DNA from: a virus
IMG/VR virus record: IMGVR_UViG_3300047471_000852
Location: 1-48,833 of that record
Reading direction: 5' to 3' (one strand)
DNA: 48,833 nt
Position numbers and translations under genes: made by a program. The notes beneath the pieces were generated by a model. The model saw nothing but the letters and a program-made list of their open reading frames with translations, was not told the origin of the DNA and did not search any database. Numbering within the stretch: the first letter of the stretch is position 1; the number at the start of each line of letters is the position of its first letter. Below, one piece after another: positions 17,203-35,544 of the stretch.

Positions 17203-17794
17203 GCTCCAGGTGATGCTTGAATCGTTTGAGCGCACGACGAGCGGGCAGGCTCACCTCGTGTTTCGCACGGACATCGACGACGTGCCGACGAACGACCTGT
17301 TGGCAGGCCACCCGAAGTTCGTCGCGCAGCGGCTTGGCTATGCCAACTTGCCGACGATGTACAACGAGCTATACGCCAGGTCATCAGGTGACTTGTTGAT
17401 GTGCGGCAACGACGACATGGTGTTTCATACGTTCGGGTGGGATCACCACATCCTGGAGGCGGCGAACCAGTACCCGGACGGCGTGTTCGACTTCGGCGTC
17501 CACACGCACAACGAGGCGAACTTCCCGTTTGCAACGGTCTCTCGGATGGCATGCGACCGGCTGGGGTTCTTCTTCGACCCGCGCACCTTCTGGGGCGACA
17601 TCTTCTGGCGCGACGTTACGTCGCACTTCGGACGCGCCATCATGCTGCCGCACGTGCACATCGATCACGACTGGGTAGGATTCAACCCGGATCAGATCTT
17701 TCTCGACGGGGAAGGCGCGCGACGTTCGAATCACATGCAATACCACGGACAGGCCGTGGCGGAAGCCGTCAACAAGTTGAGGAGCGCAGCATGA
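17150..17794 (+). CDS. Glycosyltransferase-like protein (GT-A)
   Basis: The 214 residues open MAFESISVLVPTRQR, a typical GT2 first strand, and contain MCGNDDMVF with NDD at about 87-89 as the likely metal/nucleotide site, then GWDHHILEAAN. A TTG three bases earlier is possible, but the ATG is preferred. It overlaps the C-methyltransferase by 53 bases, the longest overlap in the cassette, and shares ATGA with the next transferase. It resembles the two following GT2 genes in length and motif order, so these may be paralogues. Confidence 0.72.
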   Translation: MAFESISVLVPTRQRLDRLQVMLESFERTTSGQAHLVFRTDIDDVPTNDLLAGHPKFVAQRLGYANLPTMYNELYARSSGDLLMCGNDDMVFHTFGWDHHILEAANQYPDGVFDFGVHTHNEANFPFATVSRMACDRLGFFFDPRTFWGDIFWRDVTSHFGRAIMLPHVHIDHDWVGFNPDQIFLDGEGARRSNHMQYHGQAVAEAVNKLRSAA

Positions 17795-18453
17795 AGCCCA
17801 TGCACGTGTGCATTCCGGTCCTGAAGCGGTACGACCTCCTTCACAACCTCTTGGAGTCGTTGCGTGCCAGTACCGTCGAACCGGCAGGCGCCTACGTCAT
17901 CGACAACGGGCGCAACGCGGTCCGCGTCAACGCAGCGGTCAGCGACTGTCAGTTCCCGGTCATCGTGTGGACGCCCGAAGAGCCGATGGGCATCGCCGAG
18001 AGCTGGAACTGGTTCCTCGACCACGTGCCCGAGGAGCGCATCATCACGAACGACGACGTGGTCTTCGGGCCACAGACGCTGGCGAAGTTTGCCGCGACGG
18101 AGAAGGACATTGTGTGGGCGGCCGAGGCGGGCTTCTCGTGCTTCATCATTCGCGACAGCTGCGTAAAGAAGATTGGGCTATTCGATGAGTCGATCTCACC
18201 GGGGTATGGCTATTGGGAAGATGAAGATTACGCCATGCGCCTTAACCGCAAAGGCAAGGGACCAGAGTTTGCGTCGTGTGGTGACGTCGTTTGTGGGGTG
18301 GAACATTTGCATAGTAAGACGCTTGAAGTGGCAACGCCGGTGGAGATGGAGGAGCATCACCGTCGGTTCTGGATCGCGCAGCACAACTACATCGAGAAGT
18401 GGGGGCTGCAAAGGGAGTACGCGAAAGGACTCGTAGAAGGGATGGTCAAGTGA
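17791..18453 (+). CDS. Glycosyltransferase GT2-like
   Basis: The 220-residue protein begins MKPMHVCIPVLKRYDLLHNL, a GT2 N-terminus, and has AYVIDNG (34-40), ITNDDVVFG (NDD at 87-89), and the later YWEDEDYAMRLNRKG (about 141-155), where GT2 enzymes carry the ED motif that holds the catalytic base. The ATG overlaps the stop of the upstream transferase. The GTG of the next small gene overlaps its TGA. The GC content falls towards its end. Confidence 0.8.
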   Translation: MKPMHVCIPVLKRYDLLHNLLESLRASTVEPAGAYVIDNGRNAVRVNAAVSDCQFPVIVWTPEEPMGIAESWNWFLDHVPEERIITNDDVVFGPQTLAKFAATEKDIVWAAEAGFSCFIIRDSCVKKIGLFDESISPGYGYWEDEDYAMRLNRKGKGPEFASCGDVVCGVEHLHSKTLEVATPVEMEEHHRRFWIAQHNYIEKWGLQREYAKGLVEGMVK

Positions 18454-19204: not shown

Positions 19205-19434
19205 TCATCGGCTTCAATGAACCAGCGCCGATCGGTACCATCACGCGCATCGACATCATCAAGGGTGAGGAGTACTACACAGATGTGCCTGTCATGGTCA
19301 TGCGAGCAGCGACTGCTGAAGAGTGGCTCGCCGATGCAGTGGACCGCTATGGCGAGAAGGAGGGGAGAGCTATCCTAGCAGAACGACTGGCTCAGTTTCC
19401 GAATGCCGTGTTTTACGACGTGAGCATTGATTAG
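19201..19434 (+). CDS. Small hypothetical protein
   Basis: The 77 residues start MIIGFNEPAPIGTITRIDII and contain a helical DAVDRYGEKEGRAILAERLA segment. The gene overlaps the upstream transferase by four bases and has lower GC than the flanking genes. It may be a cassette-specific accessory protein. No family is recognised. Confidence 0.58.
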   Translation: MIIGFNEPAPIGTITRIDIIKGEEYYTDVPVMVMRAATAEEWLADAVDRYGEKEGRAILAERLAQFPNAVFYDVSID

Positions 19435-19450
19435 CGTGGGGCTAATGACT

Positions 19451-20656
19451 ATGAAAAATCTCCTCTGGATCGGCGACGCAGGCGTTCCCAGCGGGTTCGC
19501 GCTCGCGACGCACAAGACCCTCGACGTACTGAGGGAGCACTACAACGTGACGGTGCTGGGCATCAACTACCGTGGCGACCCGCACACGTATCCCTATCCC
19601 ATCTACGCGGCGGCGACCGAGGGCGATTCGGTCGGCTACGGGCGGATCATTTGGATGTGTGACGTCGTGAAGCCAGACGTCATCGTGCTGCAGAACGACC
19701 CCTGGCTGATTCCGGGGTATCTGCAGCGACTGCGTCAGTTCCCCGAGTTCCGCAACATCCCGGTCGTCGCGTCGATTCCGGTCGACGGCAAGAACCAGAA
19801 CGGCACGCAGCACCTCAACGGCCTCGCGATGGCCATCTTCTGGACCGACTTCGGGCTGAAGGAGGCGCGGCGAGGCGGCTACACGGGACCGGCGGTGGTC
19901 ATCCCGCTCGGCGTGGACCTCGACACCTACTACCCGGTCGACAAGCGCGAGGCGCGGCTGGCGCGCAAGCTCGACTTCGTGGTCGACAAGTTCATCGTCG
20001 GCAACGTCAACCGCAACCAGCCGCGCAAGCGGTGGGACCTGACGATCAAGTACTTCGCCGAGTGGACGAAGGCCGAGAAGATCTTCGACGCGCACCTCTA
20101 CCTCCACACGGCGCCGACGGGCGACGTTGGCTGTGACGTCAAGCAGCTGATGAAATACTATGGCGTCTACGACCGCCTGATCCACCGGGAACCGGCCATC
20201 TGGTATGGCGACGAAGACACCATGATGGCCGTAACCTACAACTGCTTTGACGTTCAGGTCTCGACGACGCAGGGCGAGGGCTTCGGCCTGACAACGTTCG
20301 AGGGGATGGCCTGCGCCGTGCCGCAGATCGTGCCTGACTGGGCGGCACTCGGCGAGCTGACGCCCGGCGCGGCGGCCCTTGTCCCGTGCCTGTCGACGGC
20401 CATCGGCTGGCCGTATCTGAACGTCATCGGCGGTATCCCGGACCAGGAACTGTTCACGCGGCAGCTCAGCCAGATGTACCACGACAAGGAGTACCGTGCC
20501 GAGGTCGGCCGTCGCGGCTTCCACCGGGCCAACGAGGACCGGTTCCGGTGGTCCAATATCGGCCGTCGGTGGCTGGACGTGCTGGCGGGTGTCGAGCAGA
20601 AGCACAACGAGATCACGTGGCAGGACCTCGGGCGACCCGAGGAGGTGACAACGTGA
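19451..20656 (+). CDS. Glycosyltransferase family 4-like (GT-B)
   Basis: The 401-residue protein starts MKNLLWIGDAGVPSGFA, a GT-B N-terminus with a Gly-rich loop. It shows the retaining GT4 signature EGFGLTTFEGMACAVPQIV (about residues 274-292), where the two Glu contact the nucleotide sugar. IVGNVNRNQPRKRWDL and AHLYLHT are the first strands of the second Rossmann domain. ATGs at 19445 and 19451 both follow a GGGG; the spacing favours 19451. The TGA overlaps the GTG of the tail-completion gene, so the cassette is stitched directly into the structural operon. Confidence 0.85.
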   Translation: MKNLLWIGDAGVPSGFALATHKTLDVLREHYNVTVLGINYRGDPHTYPYPIYAAATEGDSVGYGRIIWMCDVVKPDVIVLQNDPWLIPGYLQRLRQFPEFRNIPVVASIPVDGKNQNGTQHLNGLAMAIFWTDFGLKEARRGGYTGPAVVIPLGVDLDTYYPVDKREARLARKLDFVVDKFIVGNVNRNQPRKRWDLTIKYFAEWTKAEKIFDAHLYLHTAPTGDVGCDVKQLMKYYGVYDRLIHREPAIWYGDEDTMMAVTYNCFDVQVSTTQGEGFGLTTFEGMACAVPQIVPDWAALGELTPGAAALVPCLSTAIGWPYLNVIGGIPDQELFTRQLSQMYHDKEYRAEVGRRGFHRANEDRFRWSNIGRRWLDVLAGVEQKHNEITWQDLGRPEEVTT

Positions 20657-23053: not shown

Positions 23054-26000
23054 ATGGAAATAGGGTCGCTGACAGGCGAGATTACCCTCGAAGACAAGGC
23101 GACAGAGGTCATCCTTCAGTTCTCGGACAAGGTCAAGAAGTTCGCCGAGGAGATGGAAGGTGTGTCCGGTGCCATCGCCATCGGCTTCGGCGTCGTCACG
23201 GCCGCCGTCCTCGCGACGTCGGCGAGCATCGTGGCGCTCGGCGAGAAGGGGTCGACGCTGCTCGGCGTTGAGACGGCGTTCGACCACCTAGCCGAAGCGG
23301 CCGGGACGACGGGTGACAACCTGCGCGGCGCGCTGTCCGAAGGGCTGAAGGGCACCGTCGACGACATGGACGCCATGCAGTCCGTGCAACGTCTGCTCGT
23401 ATCAGGGTTCAAGCTCACCGACGAACAGGCCACGACCCTCGCGCAGACGGCGCGCGAGCTTGGGAAGGCGTTCGGCAAGGATGCGGCCGAAGAGTTAGAC
23501 ATCCTGAGCACGTCGCTGGCCACCGGGAGGACGCGGGCGCTGACGATGCAGGGCGTCGTCATCGACGTGAAGAAGGGTGAAGAGGAGTTCGCCAAGTCCA
23601 TCGGAACGACTGTCGATCAGCTGAACGCCGAGGGCCTGCTCGAGGGCAAGCGCATCGCCATCATGGAAGGCGTCAAGGGCAAGCGTGACGCCCTTGGCAT
23701 CTCCGAACTCAGCTTCAAGGAGATGGTGCAGAATACGAACGTCGCCCTCGAAGAGTGGGGCGAGAAGCTGGCCAAGTCCGTCGCGTCATCACCTGACGTG
23801 CTGAGGGCGTACGAGACGATGAGGGACGCGGTCATCAAGACGTTCGGCGGCGACTCTCAGGACCTGATGGCGACGATGACCGGGTGGATCAACGCCTTCG
23901 CCAAGAGCGTCACGGAGCACGGGCCGGCCATCGTCAGTACGCTGGGCAACGTGGTCGACGGTATCAAGGGCATTTACGATTTCCTGTTGGAGCACGAGGA
24001 CGACATCAAGACCCTCGCCGTCGGCGTTGCCGCGTATACCGCTGCATGGGCGGCGCTTGAAATCGGTGGGACGATCGTCACCGGCGTCATTGCCGGCATC
24101 AAGGCGATCACGCTCGCGGCGGAGATACTGGAGGCTGGGTCGTTGGTCGGCCTCATCACGCCAATCGGCCTCGTCGCGGCTGCTGTGGCCGGCCTCGCCA
24201 TCGCCGTCTACAAGTTCAACCAGGAGATGAAGAACATCCAGAAGCCCAGCACCACGGGCGACCTGCTCGCCAGCCTCAAGACGGAGGCGGGCGCGAAGGC
24301 GATGACCATCGACGAGTTCAACGCGAAGCTGGCCGCGAAGCCGCAGCTGGAAGCTGGAAAGACACTCACGATTCCTGGCATCATGGCGCCTGGCGCTGGA
24401 CTTCCAGATAACGCGCAGTATGTCAAGGACCAGGCCGAGAAGATCGAGAAGGCCACGACCGACAGCATCGCAAAGACGGAAGGCCTCTGGGACCAGTACT
24501 TCATCACCATCGACAAGATGAGCGGCGACACGGTGGGCGCGCAGATCGGGGCGATCGACCGCAAGCGAGAGGCTGAGATCGCCTCGCTCGACAAGACGAA
24601 GAAGTACAACCAGGACTATCAGAATCAGCTGCAGGCGATCGAGGCCGTGGCGGCGGTCAACCGTGCTGCCATCTTTGAGGACTTGTATAGGAAGGACGTG
24701 GCAGCTGCGGATCAAGCGGTGAAGGACCGCTTGCAGCTGGCCTATGACGAGGGAATAAAAGAAGCCGACCTACGGAAGTCTGGAAGCGATAAAGTCATCG
24801 ATGCATGGAAGAAGACCCAAGACGATTTGGTAGCGATCAATGCCACGGGGCTGGACAAACAGCTGCTCAACATCAACAAATCGGCCGACGACCAGATCGC
24901 CGTCATCAAGGAGATGACGGACAAGGAACCAGGATATACGCAGGCGGCGGTCGACAACGTGAACGCCATTCGGCAGCAGCAGATTGATGCCCTGTACGTC
25001 GACAACGCCGCGCTCCAGGACAACTCGGCCGAGACGCTCCAGGCCATCGCCGACAAGGCGTACACCACGTACCTGGCGATGGCGGCAGCTGGCGGCGAGT
25101 ACTCCGAGGTGACGATCAAGCACTTCAAGGAGGTCGCCGACGCGGCGCAGCGCACGGCCAGCGGCATCGGGAAGAGCCTCGGGTCGGACCTGTTCGACGC
25201 CCTGAAGGGCGTCCCGCAGACCCTCGCCGATGCCTTCAAGGGCGGCGGCAGCCTGCTCGGCGCCGCTGAGTCACTCGGCTCGCAGTTTGGCGCCATCTTC
25301 GGCAAGCACATCGGCACCGCCATCGGCGGCGCGCTCTCGATCGCTGGTCCCATCGGCGCGGCCATCGGCTCGCTCGTCGGCCCGCTCATCGACATGTTCG
25401 CAAAGCTCGGCGGCCCGTCGAAGGACGAGCTGGCCGCTCGCTCCACCTTCGCCGACTTCCAGAAGCAGTTCGGCACGCTGCCGCAAACGATCGACAAGGT
25501 TGGCGCCGCGTACGCCCGCATGGGCCTCACGGGGACCGACGCGCAGCGCGACCTGCAGCGCGCGCTCGACGCCACGCACGTGAGCGCGGCGGCCGAGGCG
25601 TCGGCCCTCGACACCATCAACCTCGTACTCGAGGCCGACAAGCAGCGGACGGCGGACCTGGCCTCGGCCACGCAGGACGTCATCACGGCCGGGCAGGGGT
25701 TCTCCGGGCCGCTGCCCGACGCCATCAAGGTGACCATCGACCAGATCATGAACGCCTCCGGCGCCACCGACGCGATGAAGGCGGCGCTCCAAGGCGTGCT
25801 CGACAAGGCGAAGCCCGACTACGAGCAGCTCACGAAGCTGGCCGAGACCTACGGCCTCTCGCTCCAGGACCTCGGGCCGAAGTTCGAGCAGGCGAACGTC
25901 GAGGGGCGCGCGAAGAAGATCTTCGACGACTTCACGGCCCTCACGCAGGCGGGCGGCGACGTCGGCGGCGTGCTGAGCCACATGAAGGACCAGATCAGCG

Positions 26001-26575
26001 GCCTGGTCGACGACTCGATGAAGTTCGGCACCGCCATCCCGAAGAACATGAAGCCGCTGATCGACGAGCTGGTCCGGTCCGGGCAGCTGACCGACGAGCA
26101 GGGCAACAAGATCGAGGACACGTCGAAGATCACGTTCGAGGATACGCCGCTCGACAAGAGCTTGACCGGGCTGAACGCCGCCATCGATCACCTGTCGCAG
26201 GTCTTGGGCCTCGTGCCGGGACAGCTCGACAAGATCGGCAGCGCCGCCGACCGACTCCCCGACAATCCATACAAGGACTGGGTCGCACCGCCTCCGCCGG
26301 CGAGCCAGGACGGGCAAGCGTACGCGCAAGGTGGCGTCGTGTACGCGGCCGCTGGCATGACGGTCGGCGGACCGCGCGGCACCGACACGGTCCCTGCGTG
26401 GCTGACGCCAGGTGAACGCGTGACGTCGTTGAACCAACAGCGGCAGGACTCCGAAGCGATGGCGGAGCTGCAGATGGAGGTCGCGGGCCTCCGTCGTGAC
26501 ATGAACTCCAAGTTCCCGCGCGCGATCGGCGCGGCGGTCGGCACGGCGCTGGTCGGCGTGAGGATCGGCTCGTAA
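23054..26575 (+). CDS. Tape measure protein
   Basis: The 1173-residue protein follows the chaperone pair. It has a helical, coiled-coil-prone body, hydrophobic membrane-like segments around residues 315-400 (AAYTAAWAALEIGGTIVTG, VGLITPIGLVAAAVAGLAI) and 735-780, and the C-terminal GTDTVPAWLTPGE motif seen in many tape measures. At about 0.15 nm per residue it predicts a tail of roughly 175 nm. The SD is AAAGGAC and the ATG directly follows the upstream TAG. Its last codon overlaps the tail-tip gene by one base. No lytic transglycosylase or peptidase motif was seen within it. Confidence 0.92.
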   Translation: MEIGSLTGEITLEDKATEVILQFSDKVKKFAEEMEGVSGAIAIGFGVVTAAVLATSASIVALGEKGSTLLGVETAFDHLAEAAGTTGDNLRGALSEGLKGTVDDMDAMQSVQRLLVSGFKLTDEQATTLAQTARELGKAFGKDAAEELDILSTSLATGRTRALTMQGVVIDVKKGEEEFAKSIGTTVDQLNAEGLLEGKRIAIMEGVKGKRDALGISELSFKEMVQNTNVALEEWGEKLAKSVASSPDVLRAYETMRDAVIKTFGGDSQDLMATMTGWINAFAKSVTEHGPAIVSTLGNVVDGIKGIYDFLLEHEDDIKTLAVGVAAYTAAWAALEIGGTIVTGVIAGIKAITLAAEILEAGSLVGLITPIGLVAAAVAGLAIAVYKFNQEMKNIQKPSTTGDLLASLKTEAGAKAMTIDEFNAKLAAKPQLEAGKTLTIPGIMAPGAGLPDNAQYVKDQAEKIEKATTDSIAKTEGLWDQYFITIDKMSGDTVGAQIGAIDRKREAEIASLDKTKKYNQDYQNQLQAIEAVAAVNRAAIFEDLYRKDVAAADQAVKDRLQLAYDEGIKEADLRKSGSDKVIDAWKKTQDDLVAINATGLDKQLLNINKSADDQIAVIKEMTDKEPGYTQAAVDNVNAIRQQQIDALYVDNAALQDNSAETLQAIADKAYTTYLAMAAAGGEYSEVTIKHFKEVADAAQRTASGIGKSLGSDLFDALKGVPQTLADAFKGGGSLLGAAESLGSQFGAIFGKHIGTAIGGALSIAGPIGAAIGSLVGPLIDMFAKLGGPSKDELAARSTFADFQKQFGTLPQTIDKVGAAYARMGLTGTDAQRDLQRALDATHVSAAAEASALDTINLVLEADKQRTADLASATQDVITAGQGFSGPLPDAIKVTIDQIMNASGATDAMKAALQGVLDKAKPDYEQLTKLAETYGLSLQDLGPKFEQANVEGRAKKIFDDFTALTQAGGDVGGVLSHMKDQISGLVDDSMKFGTAIPKNMKPLIDELVRSGQLTDEQGNKIEDTSKITFEDTPLDKSLTGLNAAIDHLSQVLGLVPGQLDKIGSAADRLPDNPYKDWVAPPPPASQDGQAYAQGGVVYAAAGMTVGGPRGTDTVPAWLTPGERVTSLNQQRQDSEAMAELQMEVAGLRRDMNSKFPRAIGAAVGTALVGVRIGS

Positions 26576-29500
26576 TGTTTGCACACGTCTACTTCCCCGG
26601 CGCCTACTTCCCGGGAGTCTACTTCCCGCTGGAAGCCACCTCGTCGACCGCGACGCTGATCCCGAGCACCGCCGAGGCGCTCGTCGGCAACACGATTCAG
26701 GTGACCGCGAGCGGCGGACCTGGACACGTGCTCGACAGGGTGGCGCTCTACCGGGTCGGCACGCCGGACTACATCGACTACGCGGCCATCGTCCTCGGCG
26801 ACACGCCCGTCGCCTACTGGCGGCTCGGGGAGCCGCTCGGATCTGCGACCATCGTGGACGCGAGCGGCCACGGCTACGTCGGCACGGTGAACGGCACGGT
26901 GATCTTCGGGCAGCCGGGCCTGCAGCAGGACAACGACACGGCGGCGGCCTTCAGCGGCATCGACGGCAACGGCGTGACGCTCGATACGCCGACGCCCGTC
27001 TCGGCGCACTTCACCGTCGAGGCCTGGGTAAAGCGCATCGGCGACAGCACGAGCAGCAGCGCGTACGAGTACATCTGGAGTTCCGGCCTCATCGTCAACA
27101 ACGCGGTCGAGGTGGCACTGTTCGACGCCGGGGCCACGACGACCCTGCAGTTCTTCATCAACTTCACGACCCTGACGCCGGGGTGGATCGACACGGGCTA
27201 CGTCGTCACCGACGGCGAGTGGTTCCACGTCGCAGTCACGTGGGACGGCGTCCGGGTCATCGTCTACGTCAACGGGAACGCCGTCTACTCGTCGGCGGCC
27301 TTCACCGGACTGACGCTCTACAGCGTCGGCTCGACCTCCGGTACGCGCGGCATCGGCTCGACGGAGGGCCTCGCCGGGCCGATCTGGGGCATCCTCGACG
27401 AGGTGGCGCTGTACGACTACGCGCTGTCGAGCGGACAGATCAACGAGCACCTCGGCGCCGTCGTGCCGCAGATGGTGTCGTGGCAGTACATGAACGGGAC
27501 GCAAACGCCACCCGCCATCGGCCTCACCGACGCGACGCTGTCGTTCGTCATGGCGTACGGCGGCTTCTTCGAGTTCCGGTGGCTGTTCGCGGGCGGCTGG
27601 TCCCGCATCGCGACCAGCATCACGGTCTCGGTCCACTGGACGAGCGGCGTCGTGGAGATGGAGTTCAACGGGCGCGGCGGTGGCTGGACGCCAGTGACCG
27701 ACTGGATGCGGAACCCTGGCATCACGTGGCACCGGGGGCTGCCAGGCACCAACATCACCGACCTCGTGGCCGACATCGGGACGCTCCACCTGACGCTCGA
27801 CAACAGCGACCGGAACAGCGCTGGGCTGATGGGCTACTACAGCCCGGACAACGTCAACTGTCGCAAGGGCTTTGACCTCTACATTGGCCTGCGGTACACC
27901 GTTGCCGGCAGTCGGCGATTCACGGGCACCATCTCGGCGATCGACGTCGTGCCGGGGACGAAGGGCTCGCGCAGGGTTGCGGTCGAGGCCGAGAGCTGGA
28001 TGGGCACGGCCTCGCGTACGCGCCTCTCGGGCCTCATCGGCGTCCTCGTGAACAACCGCGGCGACCAGGTGTTTCAGGCGATCATCGACTCGCTGACGCC
28101 CTCGACGAAGCCGCTGGCGGTCGAGAAGGACGTCAGCTCGGACATCTTCCCCTACACGCTCGACCGCGTACGCGACGAACAGACGCTGCTGCGGGACGAG
28201 ATCTACAGACTGTGCCTGAGCGGCCTGGACAAGTGCTGGGAGCGCGGCGACGGGACCGTCGTCTATGAGAGTCGATCGCGTCGGGTGACGACGTCGAGCA
28301 GCGCGGACAACTTTCCCGACAACCATGGCTTCACGCCGACGCGCGACCGCAACGGGATCGTCAATCAGGTGCAGTCCACCGTCCACCCGAGGCTCCCCTC
28401 GGCGGTCAGCGTCGTGATGTACTCTCTGAACCAGCCGTTGTCGCTGGTGCCGGGGACGCCGATCACGGTGCTCGGCGGCTGGAACGACCCAGCCAACCCG
28501 AACGTGCGCCTCGGCGCCGTCAATCTTGACGCGCTGGTGGCGACGACCGACTACACGGCGAACTCGCTGGCCGACGGGTCGGGTACCGATCTCACGAGCC
28601 TCCTCGTCGTCACGACTGGGCTGTCCGGCAACGCGACCACGTTCACGATTACGTTGGGCGGCGCGACGCCAGGGTTCCTGACCAAGCTGCAGCAGCGCGG
28701 CAAGCCGCTCTATGACTACGGGCCGGTCGTCATGACCTACGACAACCCGGCGAGCATCGACAAGAGTGGCATGGCGTTCATGTCCCTGGACATGGCCTAC
28801 CAAGCGGACCCGCGGTTCGGGCTGGAGGCAGCGCAGTACGTTATCTTCACCCTGTCAGGGCTGCAGACGAAGGTCTCGGGCTTTCGCCGCACCTATGGAT
28901 TCTTGAACGTCGCCGAGATGGCCCGCACGGTGGCACGCGAGGTAAGCGACCGCATCACGATCACCGACGAGCTGACTGGCCTCAGCAAGATCTTCTTCAT
29001 CAACGCCATCGACGAGATGGAGGTCGAAGGGCTGCTGACGACGGAGTGGCTGCTGACGCCCGCCGACAACACAGCGTTCTGGCTGCTGGAGGTCGTCGGT
29101 CGCAGCGAGCTGGACGCGACCACGCGGCTCGGCTTCGGGTTGATCGTCGGGCACACGGACGTCTTGCACGGCGACATCCATACGGACGTGGCGCACGCGG
29201 ACTCTGTCCATCAAGACTCGCATACCGATGCGCACGCGGACGTCTCGCACGGTGACGACACGGGCCATACAGACATTCCGCATACCGACACGCCGCACAC
29301 GGACACGCACAGCGACGTGGCGCACGGGGACAGCCACTCGGACGTGGCGCACGTGGACTCGACGCAGACGGCGGGGTACGGCGACTATCACGAGGACGAG
29401 GCGGCGACGGGGTTCCACTCCGACTACTGGACCGCGTCTCCAGTGACCCACGGCGATGGCGATGGCTCGAGCCACCAGGACATCCATCAGGACGTGACGG

Positions 29501-29733
29501 TGCCGTTCTCGCACAACGACGTGGCCCACTCGGACGTGGCCCACTCGGACTCGCCGCACACCGATTCGCGGGTCATCGTCAACCACGTTGATTCGGCGCA
29601 CGGCGACGCCACGGGGCACACCGATACAGGTCACATCGACACGCACGGCGACGTTAACCACGCGGACGTCCTGCATCAGGACGCACCGCACGACGATACG
29701 CACACGGACGCGGCGCACGGAGACATCAATTGA
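26575..29733 (+). CDS. Tail-tip/hub protein with LamG domain and C-terminal His-x-Asp repeats
   Basis: The 1052-residue protein follows the tape measure, where distal tail/hub proteins lie. Residues 1-20 hold three YFPG-type repeats (VYFPGAYFPGVYFP). Residues 78-292 form a LamG/concanavalin-type domain (YWRLGEPLG, FTVEAWVKR, EWFHVAVTWDGVRVIVYVNG, WGILDEVALYDYALS), probably a carbohydrate-binding module. Residues 380-850 form the hub-like part (HLTLDNSDRNS, RFTGTISAIDV, FRRTYGFLNVAEMARTVA). Residues 860-1052 carry 34 His-x-Asp motifs with mostly 5-residue spacing (GHTDV, LHGDI, THSDV). The stop overlaps the TTG of a radical SAM gene. The repeat tail could bind metal, be enzymatically modified, or both. 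Confidence 0.8.
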   Translation: MFAHVYFPGAYFPGVYFPLEATSSTATLIPSTAEALVGNTIQVTASGGPGHVLDRVALYRVGTPDYIDYAAIVLGDTPVAYWRLGEPLGSATIVDASGHGYVGTVNGTVIFGQPGLQQDNDTAAAFSGIDGNGVTLDTPTPVSAHFTVEAWVKRIGDSTSSSAYEYIWSSGLIVNNAVEVALFDAGATTTLQFFINFTTLTPGWIDTGYVVTDGEWFHVAVTWDGVRVIVYVNGNAVYSSAAFTGLTLYSVGSTSGTRGIGSTEGLAGPIWGILDEVALYDYALSSGQINEHLGAVVPQMVSWQYMNGTQTPPAIGLTDATLSFVMAYGGFFEFRWLFAGGWSRIATSITVSVHWTSGVVEMEFNGRGGGWTPVTDWMRNPGITWHRGLPGTNITDLVADIGTLHLTLDNSDRNSAGLMGYYSPDNVNCRKGFDLYIGLRYTVAGSRRFTGTISAIDVVPGTKGSRRVAVEAESWMGTASRTRLSGLIGVLVNNRGDQVFQAIIDSLTPSTKPLAVEKDVSSDIFPYTLDRVRDEQTLLRDEIYRLCLSGLDKCWERGDGTVVYESRSRRVTTSSSADNFPDNHGFTPTRDRNGIVNQVQSTVHPRLPSAVSVVMYSLNQPLSLVPGTPITVLGGWNDPANPNVRLGAVNLDALVATTDYTANSLADGSGTDLTSLLVVTTGLSGNATTFTITLGGATPGFLTKLQQRGKPLYDYGPVVMTYDNPASIDKSGMAFMSLDMAYQADPRFGLEAAQYVIFTLSGLQTKVSGFRRTYGFLNVAEMARTVAREVSDRITITDELTGLSKIFFINAIDEMEVEGLLTTEWLLTPADNTAFWLLEVVGRSELDATTRLGFGLIVGHTDVLHGDIHTDVAHADSVHQDSHTDAHADVSHGDDTGHTDIPHTDTPHTDTHSDVAHGDSHSDVAHVDSTQTAGYGDYHEDEAATGFHSDYWTASPVTHGDGDGSSHQDIHQDVTVPFSHNDVAHSDVAHSDSPHTDSRVIVNHVDSAHGDATGHTDTGHIDTHGDVNHADVLHQDAPHDDTHTDAAHGDIN
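29152..29730 (+). repeat. Coding His-x-Asp repeat array (34 motifs)
   Basis: The last 193 codons of the tail-tip gene encode H-x-D about every five residues, with x mostly T, G, S, A or Q and an interruption near 29370-29510 (TQTAGYGDYHEDEAATG, DYWTASPVTHGDGDG). Codons for the same residues vary, so selection appears to act on the peptide. Confidence 0.9.
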
Positions 29734-31040
29734 CGATCGAGCTGACGCCTGTCGGCGTCGCGTGCAACTTGTCATGCACATACTGCTACCAGAACCCCAT
29801 GCGCGACGCGGGGAACGTCACCGTGCCGCACGACTTCGAGAAGATGAAGGCGGGGCTGGAGCGCGAGGGCGGGTCGTTCTCGGTGTTCGGCGGCGAGGCG
29901 CTGCTTACGCCGCTGCCGCTGCTGGAAGAGATCTTCGCCTACGGCCTCCAGCGCTTCGGGTCCAACGGCATCCAGACGAACGGCGCCCTCATCACCGACG
30001 TGCACGTCGAGTTGTTCAAGCGGTACAAGGTGAACGTCGGCCTGTCGCTCGACGGGCCGGGCGAGCTGAACGACAGCCGGTGGGCGGGCTCGCTGAAGAA
30101 GACGCGCGAGGCGACGGCGCAGAGCTTCAGCGGCCTCTTTCGCCTGCTGGACGCGGGCATCGTGCCCAGCGTCATCGTGACGCTGTACCGAGGGAACGCG
30201 GTCGGCGACAAGCTGACGCAGCTGCTCGAGTGGTTCCGACTGCTCGAGGTGTACGGCGTCTACGCCGTGAGGCTGCACCTGCTGGAGGTCGAGACCGACG
30301 AGGTCCAGCAGGCGATGGCGCTGACCATCGAGGAGAACACCGCCGCGCTGCTGCGGCTCTACGAGTTCCAGGCCACGACGAAGGTCCGCTTCGACCTCTT
30401 CGGCGAGATGGCCAAGCTGCTCCTCGGCAACGACGTCGGCGCGACGTGCGTGTGGGGCGCGTGCGACCCGTACACGACGGCCGCCGTGCGCGGCGTGGAC
30501 GCGGAAGGCGAGTCGTCCAACTGCGGGCGGACGAACAAAGAGGGCATCAGTTGGCAGAAGGCCCAGACGCCGGGCTACGAGCGTCAGGTGGCGCTCTACC
30601 ATACGCCGCAGGCGGACTTCGGGTGTGAGGACTGTCGGTTCTTCTTCGCCTGCAAGGGCCAGTGCCCGGGCACGGCCGAAGGCGGCGACTGGCGGAACCG
30701 CAGCGAGCACTGCGGCGCGTGGATGACGCTGTTCGACCGCATCGAGGCGGACTTGATCAGCATCGGGCACGTGCCGCTGTCGCGGAACGACGCGCTGCGG
30801 ACGCAGGTCGACGCCCTGATGCTGAAGTACTGGGCGCGCGGCGAGAACCTCTCCATCACGCAGGCCGTCGCCGCCGTGCAGGCGGGCGTCGAGCCGACGA
30901 TCGTCCCTCCGGCGCGCGGCCACGGCGACCACTGGGACGCGCCCGACGGCTACCGGCACGCGGACGGAGACTTTACCATTCACGGCGACCGCGGAACCAC
31001 CGACATGCACGGGGACTCAGATGCCAAAAACCCTCGCTGA
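29730..31040 (+). CDS. Radical SAM/SPASM enzyme, peptide-maturase-like
   Basis: The 436-residue enzyme starts at TTG (TTGA overlap with the tail-tip stop, SD GGAG 7 bases upstream). ACNLSCTYC supplies the CxxxCxxC radical SAM cluster (C12, C16, C19). SVFGGEALLT holds the GGE motif (54-56) that helps bind SAM. Residues 240-330 have a SPASM-type Cys pattern (CVWGAC, SNCGRT, FGCEDCRFFFACKGQCPG, EHCGAW) for auxiliary Fe-S clusters, as in peptide-modifying enzymes such as anaerobic sulfatase maturases and RiPP maturases. The last 45 residues contain five His-x-Asp motifs (HGDHWD, RHADGD, IHGD, MHGD), echoing the tail protein. The likely substrate is the upstream His-x-Asp tail; the reaction is unknown. 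Confidence 0.88.
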   Translation: MTIELTPVGVACNLSCTYCYQNPMRDAGNVTVPHDFEKMKAGLEREGGSFSVFGGEALLTPLPLLEEIFAYGLQRFGSNGIQTNGALITDVHVELFKRYKVNVGLSLDGPGELNDSRWAGSLKKTREATAQSFSGLFRLLDAGIVPSVIVTLYRGNAVGDKLTQLLEWFRLLEVYGVYAVRLHLLEVETDEVQQAMALTIEENTAALLRLYEFQATTKVRFDLFGEMAKLLLGNDVGATCVWGACDPYTTAAVRGVDAEGESSNCGRTNKEGISWQKAQTPGYERQVALYHTPQADFGCEDCRFFFACKGQCPGTAEGGDWRNRSEHCGAWMTLFDRIEADLISIGHVPLSRNDALRTQVDALMLKYWARGENLSITQAVAAVQAGVEPTIVPPARGHGDHWDAPDGYRHADGDFTIHGDRGTTDMHGDSDAKNPR

Positions 31041-31386
31041 CCGCCTCGTCGTCGTTCAGCAGCAGTACGCCGACCAGATCGAGATCCAAGGCTACAGCGT
31101 CGACGCGCAGACGCGGCAGATCACGCTGACGATCGTCCCGAGCCGGTTGAACGACGACGGCGTGACGCGAACCGTGCTGCCGTCGCACGCGGTGACGTTC
31201 GACGACCCGCTCGTCACGCAGACGATGGGCCTGATCGTCTCGCAGATCGTGCTGACGGTGCTGAATCAGATCGGCGCGCCCCAGCAGGTGATCGACCGGG
31301 CGACGACGGCGATGAACAACAACCTGACGGCGACGGCGGACGTTTACTACCAAGCGACGAGGGACCAACTGTATGCCAGACTCTAG
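31021..31386 (+). CDS. Hypothetical protein in the radical SAM operon
   Basis: The 121 residues start at an ATG with SD GGGGA inside the end of the radical SAM gene (20-base overlap), so they are produced from the same transcript. A beta-rich N-half (YADQIEIQGYSVDAQTRQIT, LTIVPSRLND) is followed by helices (LIVSQIVLTVLNQIGAPQQV). It could be a structural protein, or a recognition/leader-binding partner for the modifying enzyme, but it shows no clear winged-helix RRE signature. No family is recognised. Confidence 0.6.
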   Translation: MPKTLADRLVVVQQQYADQIEIQGYSVDAQTRQITLTIVPSRLNDDGVTRTVLPSHAVTFDDPLVTQTMGLIVSQIVLTVLNQIGAPQQVIDRATTAMNNNLTATADVYYQATRDQLYARL

Positions 31387-32542
31387 GCCGGACTGGACGC
31401 GCATCATCTGGGCGAGCCGCGTGGCGCGCGAGGCGTGGGAGCCGCGCGTTCAGGCGATTCAACGGGCGTGGGTGCGCGTCGAAGTGGCATCGGTTGAGCG
31501 GCTGGTCCGAGCGGCGGCCCTCGTGTACGGGAAGCCGGAGACGAACCTGTCGATGCGCGAGGTCGCGCCAACCCGATGGGCCGTTGCCCGCAGCCTGGAC
31601 CTTGACGTCTTCTGTCATGCCTATGAGACAGGTGACGACAATACGGTTGGGCGTCTACTTGGCTATCCTGAGTGCTGCCGCGCGTTCTTCTCGCGCACGT
31701 GGGGCGGCGCGAACGTCGACACGACGTGGGAGATGCTCGCACCGGGCCTGCGCGCGGACGGACCCGTGGAGTCGAACATCCTCGGGCGGTGGCTGGGCGT
31801 CCGCCTCGTGCCGCACCTGCCGTGCAGCTTCAACTGCACGGCGACGGTCGCGTTCGCCGAACGGCTGGCGCCGTCGTGGCCTGCCCAAGAGCTCGCCTGG
31901 GCGAAAGAGATCCTCAACTGGCCCTGCGAGTGGAACGCTCGGCACGGCATCGCCGAGGTCCGGTTCCCGGTGCTCAAGCTCTCAACCCGGACGACCGTCT
32001 ACCCAGAGAAGAGGACCATCCAGCGCCACGGGCCTGGCTGGCCGGCTGAGGCAGCCCGAGGGCTTCAGTTCCCTTACCAGAAGCCAGTAAGCCCTTTGCC
32101 TCTGGTCCGGCCCGTCCTCCAGGCTGCCATCAGGCCAGAGGACAACGGCTTCTTGACGCGGAGCGGCATGGACAGCGCGCACGAGATGATCCTGGCCGCG
32201 CTCCACGACGCGCCGCCCCGCGGCACCGTCCTGGACCTTGGCGCTGGCGACGGCCGCCTCATGCGCCGCATCGCCGCCACGTTCGCGGTCCCGGTGCAAG
32301 GCGTGGAGTCGGTGCCGCTCAAGGCGTCGAAGGACCCGCTCGTCATCTGCGACGACCTGCGCCACATGATGACCGTCGAGGGCCGGCAGCACGTCGACAC
32401 GATCGTCGTCTCGGTACGGCGCTACGAAGAGGTCCCAGGACTGGAGGCGTGGTGCCGCGCGCACGCGCGACAGGTGCTGACCTACTCCTACGATTACCCG
32501 ATGTTTACGAGCATGGAGGCGGCGTGCCTTACGTCAAGATAG
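31373..32542 (+). CDS. Fusion: Cys-motif domain (DUF483-like) plus SAM methyltransferase
   Basis: The 389 residues have two parts. The N-terminal part carries RLLGYPECCRAFF (about residues 92-104), VESNILGRWLGVRLVPHLP and PCSFNC, a double-Cys signature that recalls the DUF483 family (recollection, unverified). The C-terminal part (about residues 285-380) has GTVLDLGAGDGRLMRRIAA, a class I SAM-binding motif I, followed by VQGVESVPLKASKD and VDTIVVSVRRYEEVPG. The gene overlaps its neighbours by 14 and 19 bases. It may add a second modification, such as methylation, to the same tail protein as the radical SAM enzyme. That is inference from position. Confidence 0.65.
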   Translation: MPDSRPDWTRIIWASRVAREAWEPRVQAIQRAWVRVEVASVERLVRAAALVYGKPETNLSMREVAPTRWAVARSLDLDVFCHAYETGDDNTVGRLLGYPECCRAFFSRTWGGANVDTTWEMLAPGLRADGPVESNILGRWLGVRLVPHLPCSFNCTATVAFAERLAPSWPAQELAWAKEILNWPCEWNARHGIAEVRFPVLKLSTRTTVYPEKRTIQRHGPGWPAEAARGLQFPYQKPVSPLPLVRPVLQAAIRPEDNGFLTRSGMDSAHEMILAALHDAPPRGTVLDLGAGDGRLMRRIAATFAVPVQGVESVPLKASKDPLVICDDLRHMMTVEGRQHVDTIVVSVRRYEEVPGLEAWCRAHARQVLTYSYDYPMFTSMEAACLTSR

Positions 32543-32925: not shown

Positions 32926-33413
32926 TGGCATGGACGACGCCCAGAACATGGGTCCCCGGCGAGCTGGTCACGGCCAGCATGATGAACATCCACGTCCGCG
33001 ACAACCTGAACTTCTTGCTCACGACGTTCGGCGTGTGGACGCCGGTCTCGTTCAACGCCGGGGACTACACGGCGACGGGCGGCGGCTGGACGGTGACGGG
33101 CGGCATGGTGCTCCAGAACCGCTATTCCGTCATGAATAAGACCCTCTTCTGGAACGTGATGGTGCAAAATTCGACCGTCACGTCGACGCCGACGCAGCTG
33201 CTGATCGCCGTTCCAGGTGGAGTACTCTTTTATACGACGATCAACTATAACCGCGTCGCGCGGTTAGTTGACAATGCTGTCGTCTCTGAAGGGACCGTCA
33301 CGCCGGCCAGCGCTGGACAGGTCGCCATCGCGCGGAGTTCTGGCAGCGCCACGTTCGCGGCGTCGACGACGGCGACCACCGTCCAATTCTCTGCGTGGTT
33401 CGAACTTACATAA
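32925..33413 (+). CDS. Minor tail/fibre protein
   Basis: The 162 residues begin MAWTTPRTWVPGELVTASMM followed by NIHVRDNLNFL, the widely shared start of phage tail-fibre proteins (W-x-TGELVTAxxLNxHxRDN). The rest is a beta-rich domain with GDYTATGGGWTV and ASTTATTVQFSAWFEL, as in short fibre or collar proteins. It likely forms part of the tail tip with the LamG protein upstream and the glycoside hydrolase downstream. Confidence 0.75.
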   Translation: MAWTTPRTWVPGELVTASMMNIHVRDNLNFLLTTFGVWTPVSFNAGDYTATGGGWTVTGGMVLQNRYSVMNKTLFWNVMVQNSTVTSTPTQLLIAVPGGVLFYTTINYNRVARLVDNAVVSEGTVTPASAGQVAIARSSGSATFAASTTATTVQFSAWFELT

Positions 33414-33420
33414 GGGCCTT

Positions 33421-35544
33421 ATGAAACGCCTCCTGTATCTGCTGCTCCTCACGTCGGCCTGCGCCACCATCCCGCCCAAGCCCGTGCCACCTGGGCCTCC
33501 GGTGCCGCTGCACCTCGGGGTCGTCGGCGCGTATCACGGTCCGCTCGATGACGCCACCCTGAAGACGATGGCGGGGTCCTCGGACCTGACGCTGCGCGCG
33601 GCGGTGACGAGTGTCGAGCAGGCGCGGGCGATTGCGGCGTCCGTCCAGGCGTACCCGACGCTCCATATCCTCTGGCTGGTCGAGACGGCGAACGGGCCGC
33701 TGCTGGAGGCGTTGCTGCCGGTCCTGACGGCTCCGGCGCCGAATCCGACGGCGGGCATCGAGCTGGGGAACGAACTGGATCTGGCGGGGTTGACGTCGGC
33801 GCAATTCGGGGCGTGGATTCGGGCGGCGCATTCCTCCCTCCGGGCGAACGGGTACACCGGCCGGATCATCTCGGGCGGCATCTTTACCACCCAGCCGGAA
33901 CAACTGCGGTGGCTGACGCAGGCGGGGGTCCCGACGTGGCCGACGGACATCGTCGTCGGGCTGCACCGGTACGGCGGACCGGACGATCCGGTGTCCGGCT
34001 ATCGGACGCGTGACGACGAGACGAACGCGATCCTGGCGGCGGCGGCGGGGCATGCGATCGCGTTTACGGAGTTCGGGTACCCGACGTTCACCCCGGCGGA
34101 TGAGGCGTGGGCGGCGAACGCAGTGCTCACCGATCTGAACTGGTTCCGGAAGGCGCGGGCGGAACTGGCGACGGAGTACCAGTATACGGACGGCCCCGGC
34201 ACCGGGAACCTGGATCACTTCGGCGTGCGCGCGTTCGACGGGCGGTGGAAGCCGGTGTCCGTGTCCATTGGGATTCCGATGGCGACGGGGCCTCCGGCGT
34301 CCGCCACGGTCGCGGCCGACCTCGTCGCCTGCAAGACACCCTTCCTGGATAACTATTGCGACGGTCCGGCGGGCGCGGTGTTCGCGGTCGAGACGGCGCC
34401 CAACGTCTGGCGGACGTATCACGGGGACGGCAACGGCTACGCGTGGGCGGCGGACCTGCCCAACGTCCCTGACAGCCGCATCACCATCTCGGCGCCCGGC
34501 TACTTCACGCTCGGGCCGCTCCACCTCGACATCAACCATCAGCCGCCCATCCCGACGGACCTCGTCGCGGTCAACGCGGCGGGCGTGCACAACGCGTGGC
34601 CACTGCAAGCCACGCCGCCGCCGTTCCCGGCACCACCCACGCGACAGTCCGTCCTCAACGTCCACATCACCGGGCAGGGCCTGACCGTCGACACGCAGCA
34701 GTACGGGACGCTGCCGTGGTGGGAAGCGGCGCTGACCTACCTGACGCCCACCGACCGCAACGCGGTCTATGCGGCGAAGCACGCGTCGACGGCGTGGCCG
34801 GGCGGCGACACGCACGCCATCATCGCGGTCCCGAGCGGGCGGGCGCTCTACGACGAGCCGAACCAGCCGTACAGTGCTGATCGCTTCCCGCCGCTGGACT
34901 GGACGCACGGCGGCACGGCGATGGTGCCCGAGTTCGATCAGTTGGTCATCGAGGTGATCCAGCACGGCTTCACGCCGATGATCTTCCTCGACGAGACGAT
35001 GGACACGTCCTACAAGACGCTGCCCGTCGTCTTGGACGCGCTGCAGCACTCGACGCTCGGCGACCTGACGCCCTACGTACTGGTCCTGCCAGGGTGGGAC
35101 GGCGTGTTCTATGGCTGGGAGCCGTCGCACGAGGTGATTCCCAAGTGGGCGGCGAACGCCCGCGCCCTCTGTCCGCGGTGCTACCTCGGCATCGAGCACA
35201 ACGTCGGCCACATCCCGCTCGGCGAAGGCCCGTCGGACTGGACATCGACTGGGCTGATGAAGGACTTCGACGTCCTCTTCAGCGAGTTCTGGGACGGCAT
35301 CTTCGACGACACCGTCTACCAGGTCGCCGGCCGCACCATCCGGCCCTACAACCGTCCGGCGGATCAGGTGGGCGACCCCAACCCGCCGATGTACATGCAG
35401 GGCAACGTGCGCGACCCGAACGCGCAGCCCGCGTGCTTCTTCGAGTTCGGCATGTACGGCTGGGTGCGGTCGACGTCATCGGCGGCGTCGATTATCGCGT
35501 GGCGGCAGCGCTTCAAGGACATCGGCTATACGTGTGGAGGATGA
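33421..35544 (+). CDS. Lipoprotein-like glycoside hydrolase (clan GH-A-like), tail- or cell-surface depolymerase
   Basis: The 707 residues start MKRLLYLLLLTSACATIPPK, a lipoprotein-like signal (Cys at 14; the -3 position is Thr, so the lipobox is imperfect) with a Pro-rich linker. Residues 30-330 read as a TIM barrel with GIELGNELDLAG (acid/base candidate E118) and AIAFTEFGYPTF (nucleophile candidate E217), the clan GH-A arrangement. Residues 340-440 look like a beta domain. Residues 480-700 contain a second barrel-like half (MIFLDETMDTSYKTLPVV, VLVLPGWDGVFYG, YLGIEHNVGHIP). It could degrade a capsule or cell-wall glycan. The signal peptide would send it to the host envelope rather than the virion, which is odd. 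Confidence 0.7.
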   Translation: MKRLLYLLLLTSACATIPPKPVPPGPPVPLHLGVVGAYHGPLDDATLKTMAGSSDLTLRAAVTSVEQARAIAASVQAYPTLHILWLVETANGPLLEALLPVLTAPAPNPTAGIELGNELDLAGLTSAQFGAWIRAAHSSLRANGYTGRIISGGIFTTQPEQLRWLTQAGVPTWPTDIVVGLHRYGGPDDPVSGYRTRDDETNAILAAAAGHAIAFTEFGYPTFTPADEAWAANAVLTDLNWFRKARAELATEYQYTDGPGTGNLDHFGVRAFDGRWKPVSVSIGIPMATGPPASATVAADLVACKTPFLDNYCDGPAGAVFAVETAPNVWRTYHGDGNGYAWAADLPNVPDSRITISAPGYFTLGPLHLDINHQPPIPTDLVAVNAAGVHNAWPLQATPPPFPAPPTRQSVLNVHITGQGLTVDTQQYGTLPWWEAALTYLTPTDRNAVYAAKHASTAWPGGDTHAIIAVPSGRALYDEPNQPYSADRFPPLDWTHGGTAMVPEFDQLVIEVIQHGFTPMIFLDETMDTSYKTLPVVLDALQHSTLGDLTPYVLVLPGWDGVFYGWEPSHEVIPKWAANARALCPRCYLGIEHNVGHIPLGEGPSDWTSTGLMKDFDVLFSEFWDGIFDDTVYQVAGRTIRPYNRPADQVGDPNPPMYMQGNVRDPNAQPACFFEFGMYGWVRSTSSAASIIAWRQRFKDIGYTCGG

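Follow-up and report, generated by a model that had tools for sequence, protein, structure and literature searches.

Crosslinking by radical SAM enzymes has been described for small peptide natural products. The enzymes forming three-residue cyclophanes ("triceptides") link Trp, Phe, Tyr or His at position i to Asn, Asp, Arg, Ser or Ala at i+2, and experiments have demonstrated bonds of both the His-to-beta-carbon and the aromatic-to-Asp/Asn kind, the C2(His)-Cbeta bond being formed by HaaB and YhhB and the C3(Tyr)-Cbeta(Asp) bond by YxdB (PMC11002830). ChlB, titled a multiple cyclophane synthase in work cited in PMC12636437, is described as installing several cyclophanes, and in the Chl system Asp and His are beta-hydroxylated by a separate domain after cyclophane formation (PMC12636437). 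A three-gene radical SAM (rSAM) module was described in the Thermus phages Cumys and phiMa and in prophages by Kolesnik et al. 2024, who suggested a role in DNA modification, reported that in some cyanobacteria homologues occur close to genes for deazapurine DNA modification, and called the third protein unknown (PMC11437467); His-x-Asp repeats are not mentioned there, and the word "histidine" does not occur in the text.

The stretch of DNA analysed here (the window) is a 48,833-base virus record and, judged by homology, its module is a member of this published Thermus-phage rSAM set. The window enzyme is homologous to Cumys_12 and the Thermus-phage enzymes (50-52% identity over 95-99% of length), the DUF483-like protein encoded at 31373-32539 is 34-38% identical to the Thermus copies, its gene adjoining that of the enzyme in both, and the gene 5' of the enzyme encodes a His-x-Asp array protein in Cumys, phiMa and the window alike; from this gene order we read the array gene as the third gene of the Kolesnik module. 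The earlier note on this DNA had known of no described system with His-x-Asp repeats in a virion protein. No mention of the repeats turned up in the literature searched, but the module itself had already been published (PMC11437467). The features of the window are listed below.

23054-26575: tape measure gene (phrog_9570), directly 5' of the 1052-aa open reading frame
26575..29733, plus strand: open reading frame of the tail-tip protein (1052 aa), the presumed substrate, with the array at its C-terminus
29152..29724, plus strand: His-x-Asp array of 34 triplets, residues 860-1050, with Asp at +2 of 34/34 His
29719..29722, plus strand: GGAG resembling a Shine-Dalgarno sequence, ahead of the enzyme's TTG start codon
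29730..31040, plus strand: radical SAM/SPASM peptide maturase, 436 aa, TTG start (Radical_SAM, 1.5e-11)
29763..29786, plus strand: CX3CX2C motif binding the SAM [4Fe-4S] cluster, residues 12-19, invariant in a 36-sequence alignment
30447..30713, plus strand: SPASM cysteines C240-C328, invariant in the same alignment
30921..31037, plus strand: enzyme C-terminus, a tail bearing five H-x-D (residues 398-436); 53/64 phage relatives have such a tail
31021..31386, plus strand: 121-aa open reading frame separating the enzyme gene from the DUF483-like gene, without a confident match to any family
31373..32542, plus strand: DUF483-like domain (about residues 1-240, GYPECC) followed by a class I SAM methyltransferase domain (about residues 255-389), by profile and fold

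The earlier note had counted 34 H-x-D motifs at the C-terminus of the tail protein and had placed its stop codon over the TTG start of the radical SAM gene. Both statements proved exact, the motifs numbering exactly 34 and the TGA (29731-29733) overlapping the TTG (29730-29732). Within the array, His occurred at -2 of 34 of the 38 Asp residues, the spacing was mostly 5 (17 cases) or 4 (8 cases), and 20,000 shuffles returned 6.5 H-x-D motifs on average and never more than 15. Since the His (CAC/CAT) and Asp (GAC/GAT) codons are mixed and the "x" residue is variable, the array is not a DNA tandem repeat. Chance and DNA slippage were ruled out as its origin by the shuffle test and by the absence of the enzyme beside low-diversity repeats (0/80, see below). 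The protein had also been called a hub protein. It does adjoin the tape measure gene, but this position is the sole basis for the hub or tail-tip label, Laminin_G_3 (26968-27441, 1.3e-18) being the only domain found in the 1052 residues, and its presence in the virion is likewise inferred from gene position only. Elsewhere in the window, two glycosyltransferase-like genes (17401-18450, phrog_29879; 19427-20653, phrog_2170) lie within the head/tail morphogenesis region, and a large protein encoded after the tail genes (33268-35544), with a lipoprotein-like N-terminus and glycosidase-like sequence, gave no confident family match.

The enzyme meets the criteria of the radical SAM/SPASM family, carrying the CX3CX2C motif and a seven-cysteine SPASM pattern (C-X14-G-X4-C ... 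CX2CX5CX3C ... C); the CNLSCTYC, GGE and SPASM motifs read earlier are all present, and the cysteines are invariant across the 36 sequences aligned. In a tree of these 36 enzymes the window copy groups with those of L006, L002 and L007, and phage and bacterial copies are not cleanly split. The C-terminal tail with its five H-x-D motifs (HGDHWDAPDGYRHADGDFTIHGD..MHGD), absent from the earlier note, is disordered in the predicted model (mean pLDDT 85), which was computed without alignment rows from GenBank phages. At one locus a second enzyme paralogue (L050:11493-13448) carries 25 His-x-Asp motifs fused behind its catalytic part, with IPHGDHTD as the repeated element. Beside this paralogue lie the first copy of the enzyme and two array genes that stand on their own.

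None of the curated NCBIfam models reached its cut-off for the window enzyme. The best matches below cut-off included the crosslinking maturases DynA (69 bits, cut-off 450), AmcB (64, cut-off 425), GrrM/OscB (48, cut-off 310) and YhhB (46, cut-off 445), together with a sulfatase maturase. Among solved structures, the anaerobic sulfatase maturase (anSME) was closest by E-value and ChlB by TM-score (0.63, rmsd 4.1, 18% identity). We count the crosslinking-maturase matches, the superposition on ChlB, the L050 fusion and the His-x-Asp tail borne by most phage enzymes in favour of crosslinking of the array. Against it we count that the enzyme is about equally close to the anaerobic sulfatase maturase, a non-crosslinking enzyme that scores as high as the crosslinking maturases. 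This leaves room for another radical reaction on the array, be it beta-hydroxylation or oxidation, epimerisation, or crosslinks between triplets or chains, and the beta-hydroxylation of Asp and His in the related Chl system (PMC12636437) points the same way. We regard such a reaction as possible but unlikely, on the strength of the motif grammar described below.

The enzyme scan returned one close viral relative and, with a profile, 60 viral loci; further relatives were found in the Thermus phages phiMa, phiLo and Cumys and in 29 bacterial or archaeal loci. The forward test took the 38 viral relatives whose upstream sequence reached 4.5 kb or more, and 57 more distant radical SAM loci served as controls. 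A His-x-Asp array was present in 37 of the 38 relatives and in none of the 57 controls (Fisher 1e-25). The earlier note had held that enzyme homologues regularly lacking His-x-Asp neighbours would refute its proposal, and the phage loci passed this test. The array gene usually lies immediately upstream of the enzyme, and in 29 of 54 cases the two genes overlap by 1 or 4 bases at the enzyme start. The arrays range from about 12 to 100 triplets; Cumys_13, the array protein of Cumys, has 54 His-x-Asp, and in the stretch analysed phiLo encodes one enzyme together with three large array proteins of 55 to 101 triplets. As the record G+C of the relatives runs from 0.31 to 0.69 and the bacterial ones belong to many phyla, the system is not simply an adaptation to heat. 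The 38th viral relative, L028, encodes a 349-aa protein with 37 Phe-x-Asn motifs in the same geometry as the His-x-Asp arrays.

L028:2911-3942: Phe-x-Asn array, Pfam pentapeptide-repeat match at 2e-15

This match counts against the crosslinking reading and, with the period near five, is what could be said for arrays as mere structural repeats, for example a pentapeptide-like beta-helix, paired with the enzyme by hitch-hiking in a tail cassette. L028 was the only array to match pentapeptide-repeat profiles among the array proteins tested, and the window protein gave no Pfam pentapeptide-repeat match. Moreover, the spacing between triplets varies widely, from 3 to 15 and more, and the pairing recurs in unrelated genomes with differing gene orders and outside phages, but never at the distant radical SAM loci, so that we give hitch-hiking scarcely any weight. 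A common N-terminal module of about three GSxWxEGxxLxYxDxxG repeats was observed in array proteins of unrelated phages or genomes (L003:10964-11250, L028, L214, L219); it had no Pfam or PHROG match in the array proteins tested and is possibly a tail-attachment domain.

The pairing was also approached from the arrays, by a scan for a DNA pattern of four His-x-Asp at period five that made no reference to the enzyme. It returned at least 119 stretches, and the matches listed, which are no census and include some stretches from related phages, comprised 39 diverse arrays and 80 low-diversity repeats. The latter, tandem repeats of 15 bases in which the His-x-Asp coding is accidental, were set apart; neither the enzyme nor a DUF483-like gene accompanied any of the 80 listed. 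L114, an apparent counter-example to the pairing, proved to be a nearly perfect tandem repeat built from 7 distinct units. Among the matches listed, 32 of the 39 diverse arrays had the enzyme in the stretch, three more (L065, L158, L140) had it elsewhere in the record, two (L083, L112) had only a DUF483-like gene in the record and the remaining two were fragments; the L144 stretch stops at the 3' end of its array. Diverse arrays without enzyme or DUF483-like partner were thus essentially not found among the matches listed. The co-occurrence beyond chance that the earlier note had proposed to check therefore holds from the enzyme and, among the matches listed, from the arrays, and the enzyme/array pairing in phages is not due to chance. 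In L083, L112 and L140 the array follows a collagen-like GPPGPAGAAG stretch, which by its sequence suggests a trimeric fibre; the enzyme of the L140 record lies far from the array.

The motif grammar was derived from 85 non-redundant arrays (15,289 residues), substitutions playing no part in their selection. Asp was found at +2 of His in 2431 of 2676 cases, Ser in only 4, and among the non-Asp residues at this position Asn was enriched 11.8-fold and Glu weakly. Conversely, His stood at -2 of Asp in 2431 of 2928 cases, and the residues replacing it were enriched in Tyr (7.2-fold), Phe (6.4-fold) and Trp (4.7-fold), all others reaching at most 1.2-fold. These three aromatic residues made up 44% of the non-His residues at -2 (bootstrap 38-51%) as compared with 5-9% at other offsets. 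The grammar is the i/i+2 aromatic-x-Asp/Asn rule of the triceptide enzymes. At two bacterial loci (L210, L202) the arrays are of the His-x-Lys type.

Single-residue epimerisation or oxidation would leave unexplained why the aromatic-to-Asp/Asn rule falls at exactly +2, and the variable triplet spacing makes the inter-triplet register loose, which weighs against links between triplets. The same substitutions bear on a metal-binding fibre. His and Asp are good metal ligands, and HxH iron-binding tail fibres have been discussed for phages (PMC11705849), so the array might resemble such tips while the enzyme acts elsewhere or tunes metal affinity. However, His gives way to Tyr, Phe and Trp, and among the 497 non-His residues at -2 only 2 were Cys and 6 Glu, the 72 Asp falling below their background share; in addition, the L028 array is almost all Phe-x-Asn, and diverse arrays lacking both enzyme and partner were essentially absent among the matches listed. 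We therefore attach little credence to a metal-binding role. The earlier note had offered crosslinks, epimerisation or altered side chains, with metal binding as one rationale; crosslinks are favoured by the sequence evidence, epimerisation and metal binding less so.

That note had treated the enzyme and tail protein as the module. Their pairing was confirmed, but a conserved third protein had been missed, a DUF483-like homologue being present in 38/38 viral and 29/29 bacterial or archaeal relatives. The window copy matched DUF483 (PF04467) at 0.00061 and 20.2 bits and that of its closest relative reached 24.5 bits; both lie below the Pfam gathering cut-off of 25, and we therefore name the protein DUF483-like. 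Its invariant core comprises a Gly-x-x-Pro-x-Cys-Cys type motif (GYPxCC) with C155, D116 and R144, and C101 and C102 are likewise among the invariant residues. The fused methyltransferase domain was recognised by profile and by fold, and since it takes all the structure matches listed, no fold match for the DUF483-like part appeared among them. As to its role, one can only guess that the protein presents the substrate or carries out a second tailoring step. The 121-aa open reading frame lying before it is apparently an insertion and not part of the core, since the enzyme and DUF483-like genes abut in L002.

Phages were found to carry the system, as the earlier note supposed, but it is not specific to them: bacteria and one archaeon have the module beside small peptides and secreted-looking proteins. 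Paired small His-x-Asp peptides adjoin the enzyme in L195 and L198, and a short peptide ending in HIDL in L207, all resembling RiPP precursors, a likeness that we count in favour of the crosslinking reading; Tat-signal-like proteins with His-x-Asp tails occur in L192 and L197, and large proteins ending in a few His-x-Asp triplets in L204 and L196. In many bacterial relatives the enzyme and DUF483-like domain form a single open frame. The array threshold was reached in only 13 of the 29 bacterial or archaeal loci; about half lack a clear array next door, which counts against our reading and indicates that the enzyme family is broader than the array system. We also count against it that in L208, L209 and L212 (Bradyrhizobium, Tahibacter) the enzyme and DUF483-like genes adjoin another radical SAM-like gene (motif CWWGQKHHCTFCGLN) instead, no array being seen beside them.

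L192:9113-9874, opposite strand to the enzyme: cyanobacterial His-x-Asp protein with N-terminal KilA-N and a twin-arginine-like segment

This locus bears on the suggestion of Kolesnik et al. 2024 that the rSAM/DUF483 pair modifies phage DNA, the neighbouring tail gene being incidental. The cyanobacterial homologues near deazapurine genes (PMC11437467) speak for it, but L192, the sole cyanobacterial locus examined, has a His-x-Asp neighbour, and its ten scanned neighbours include no deazapurine gene. The two-way co-occurrence with arrays, the arrays on the enzyme itself and the top relatives being peptide maturases also stand against DNA modification, which we judge very improbable.

The array, the enzyme family, the two-way co-occurrence, the motif grammar, the third component and the fusions were observed directly. 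That the array is the substrate of the enzyme is inferred without biochemical proof, yet strongly supported, and we hold it with high confidence. The earlier claim that the phage modifies its own tail tip likewise draws support from the two-way pairing, in the absence of a mass spectrum or a structure of the modified array. The three genes would form a self-contained protein-modification cassette, whose enzyme would bind the array of the tail protein translated along with it, the DUF483-like partner perhaps assisting, and abstract a hydrogen from the beta-carbon of i+2 in each aromatic-x-Asp/Asn triplet (here His-x-Asp). A bond between this carbon and the aromatic ring at i, expected at C2 where the ring is that of His, would close a strained three-residue cyclophane (-2.016 Da per triplet), after which the array may be methylated by the methyltransferase domain. 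At least 30 such rivets in a row would give the tail tip a rod or bristle that is stiff and resists proteases, a property inferred from position and from the expected behaviour of cyclophanes.

Crosslinking within the triplet is the best of the chemistries considered and, as a reaction inferred from sequence, has good odds in our estimate; that the cassette converts each array triplet in this way into a poly-cyclophane tail fibre is, with the same inferred chemistry, probable. It is somewhat likely that poly-cyclophane tail-tip fibres of 10 to 100 crosslinked triplets, with DUF483-like/methyltransferase tailoring and an enzyme bearing its own substrate tail, are widespread among tailed phages. 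If so, RiPP chemistry would serve as virion material, applied dozens of times per structural-protein chain, and the arrays would supply stiff, multiply stapled protein fibres from nature and open another approach to the resistance of phage tails to heat or proteases. A testable function is also offered for the published three-gene phage module, present in cultured Thermus phages, of which Cumys and phiMa have the laboratory strain T. thermophilus HB8 as host, and for DUF483.

Our literature search returned no paper on His-x-Asp repeats with radical SAM enzymes, nor on radical SAM modification of phage tails; papers on N4 RNA polymerase and on Campylobacter phages contained the words and were unrelated. 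As far as the literature was searched, four things are new: the reading of the module as crosslinking a virion protein, the array grammar, the spread over phages and bacteria, and the substrate tail of the enzyme.

In fold and profile score the anaerobic sulfatase maturase is similar to the window enzyme. It acts, however, on one Cys/Ser of a sulfatase and oxidises side chains without forming a crosslink, while no sulfatase was present among the neighbouring proteins scanned and the sulfatase maturase model scored far below cut-off. In the Hxs systems, too, a His-x-polar motif is repeated close to radical SAM genes, but they employ the pair HxsB/HxsC on His-x-Ser, whereas the phage module has one enzyme and His-x-Asp/Asn; with Ser so rare at +2 and a single enzyme match in the window the Hxs criteria are not met, and the HxsB model gave 33 bits (cut-off 370) in L207. 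ChlB is fused to an HExxH hydroxylase domain, in place of which the window enzyme has a DUF483-like partner. The triceptide systems (XncB, OscB, MscB, YxdB, HaaB, YhhB) likewise couple a SPASM enzyme with a neighbouring aromatic-x-Asp/Asn substrate, and their criterion of an aromatic-x-X3 motif encoded beside the enzyme is fulfilled, although the window enzyme does not meet the NCBIfam models of their maturases and hence, though it seems to act like one of them, is not filed in those families. Their substrates are short precursor peptides, whereas those of the phage module are large virion-type proteins with about 12 to 100 triplets, and the module adds the DUF483-like partner with its methyltransferase domain.
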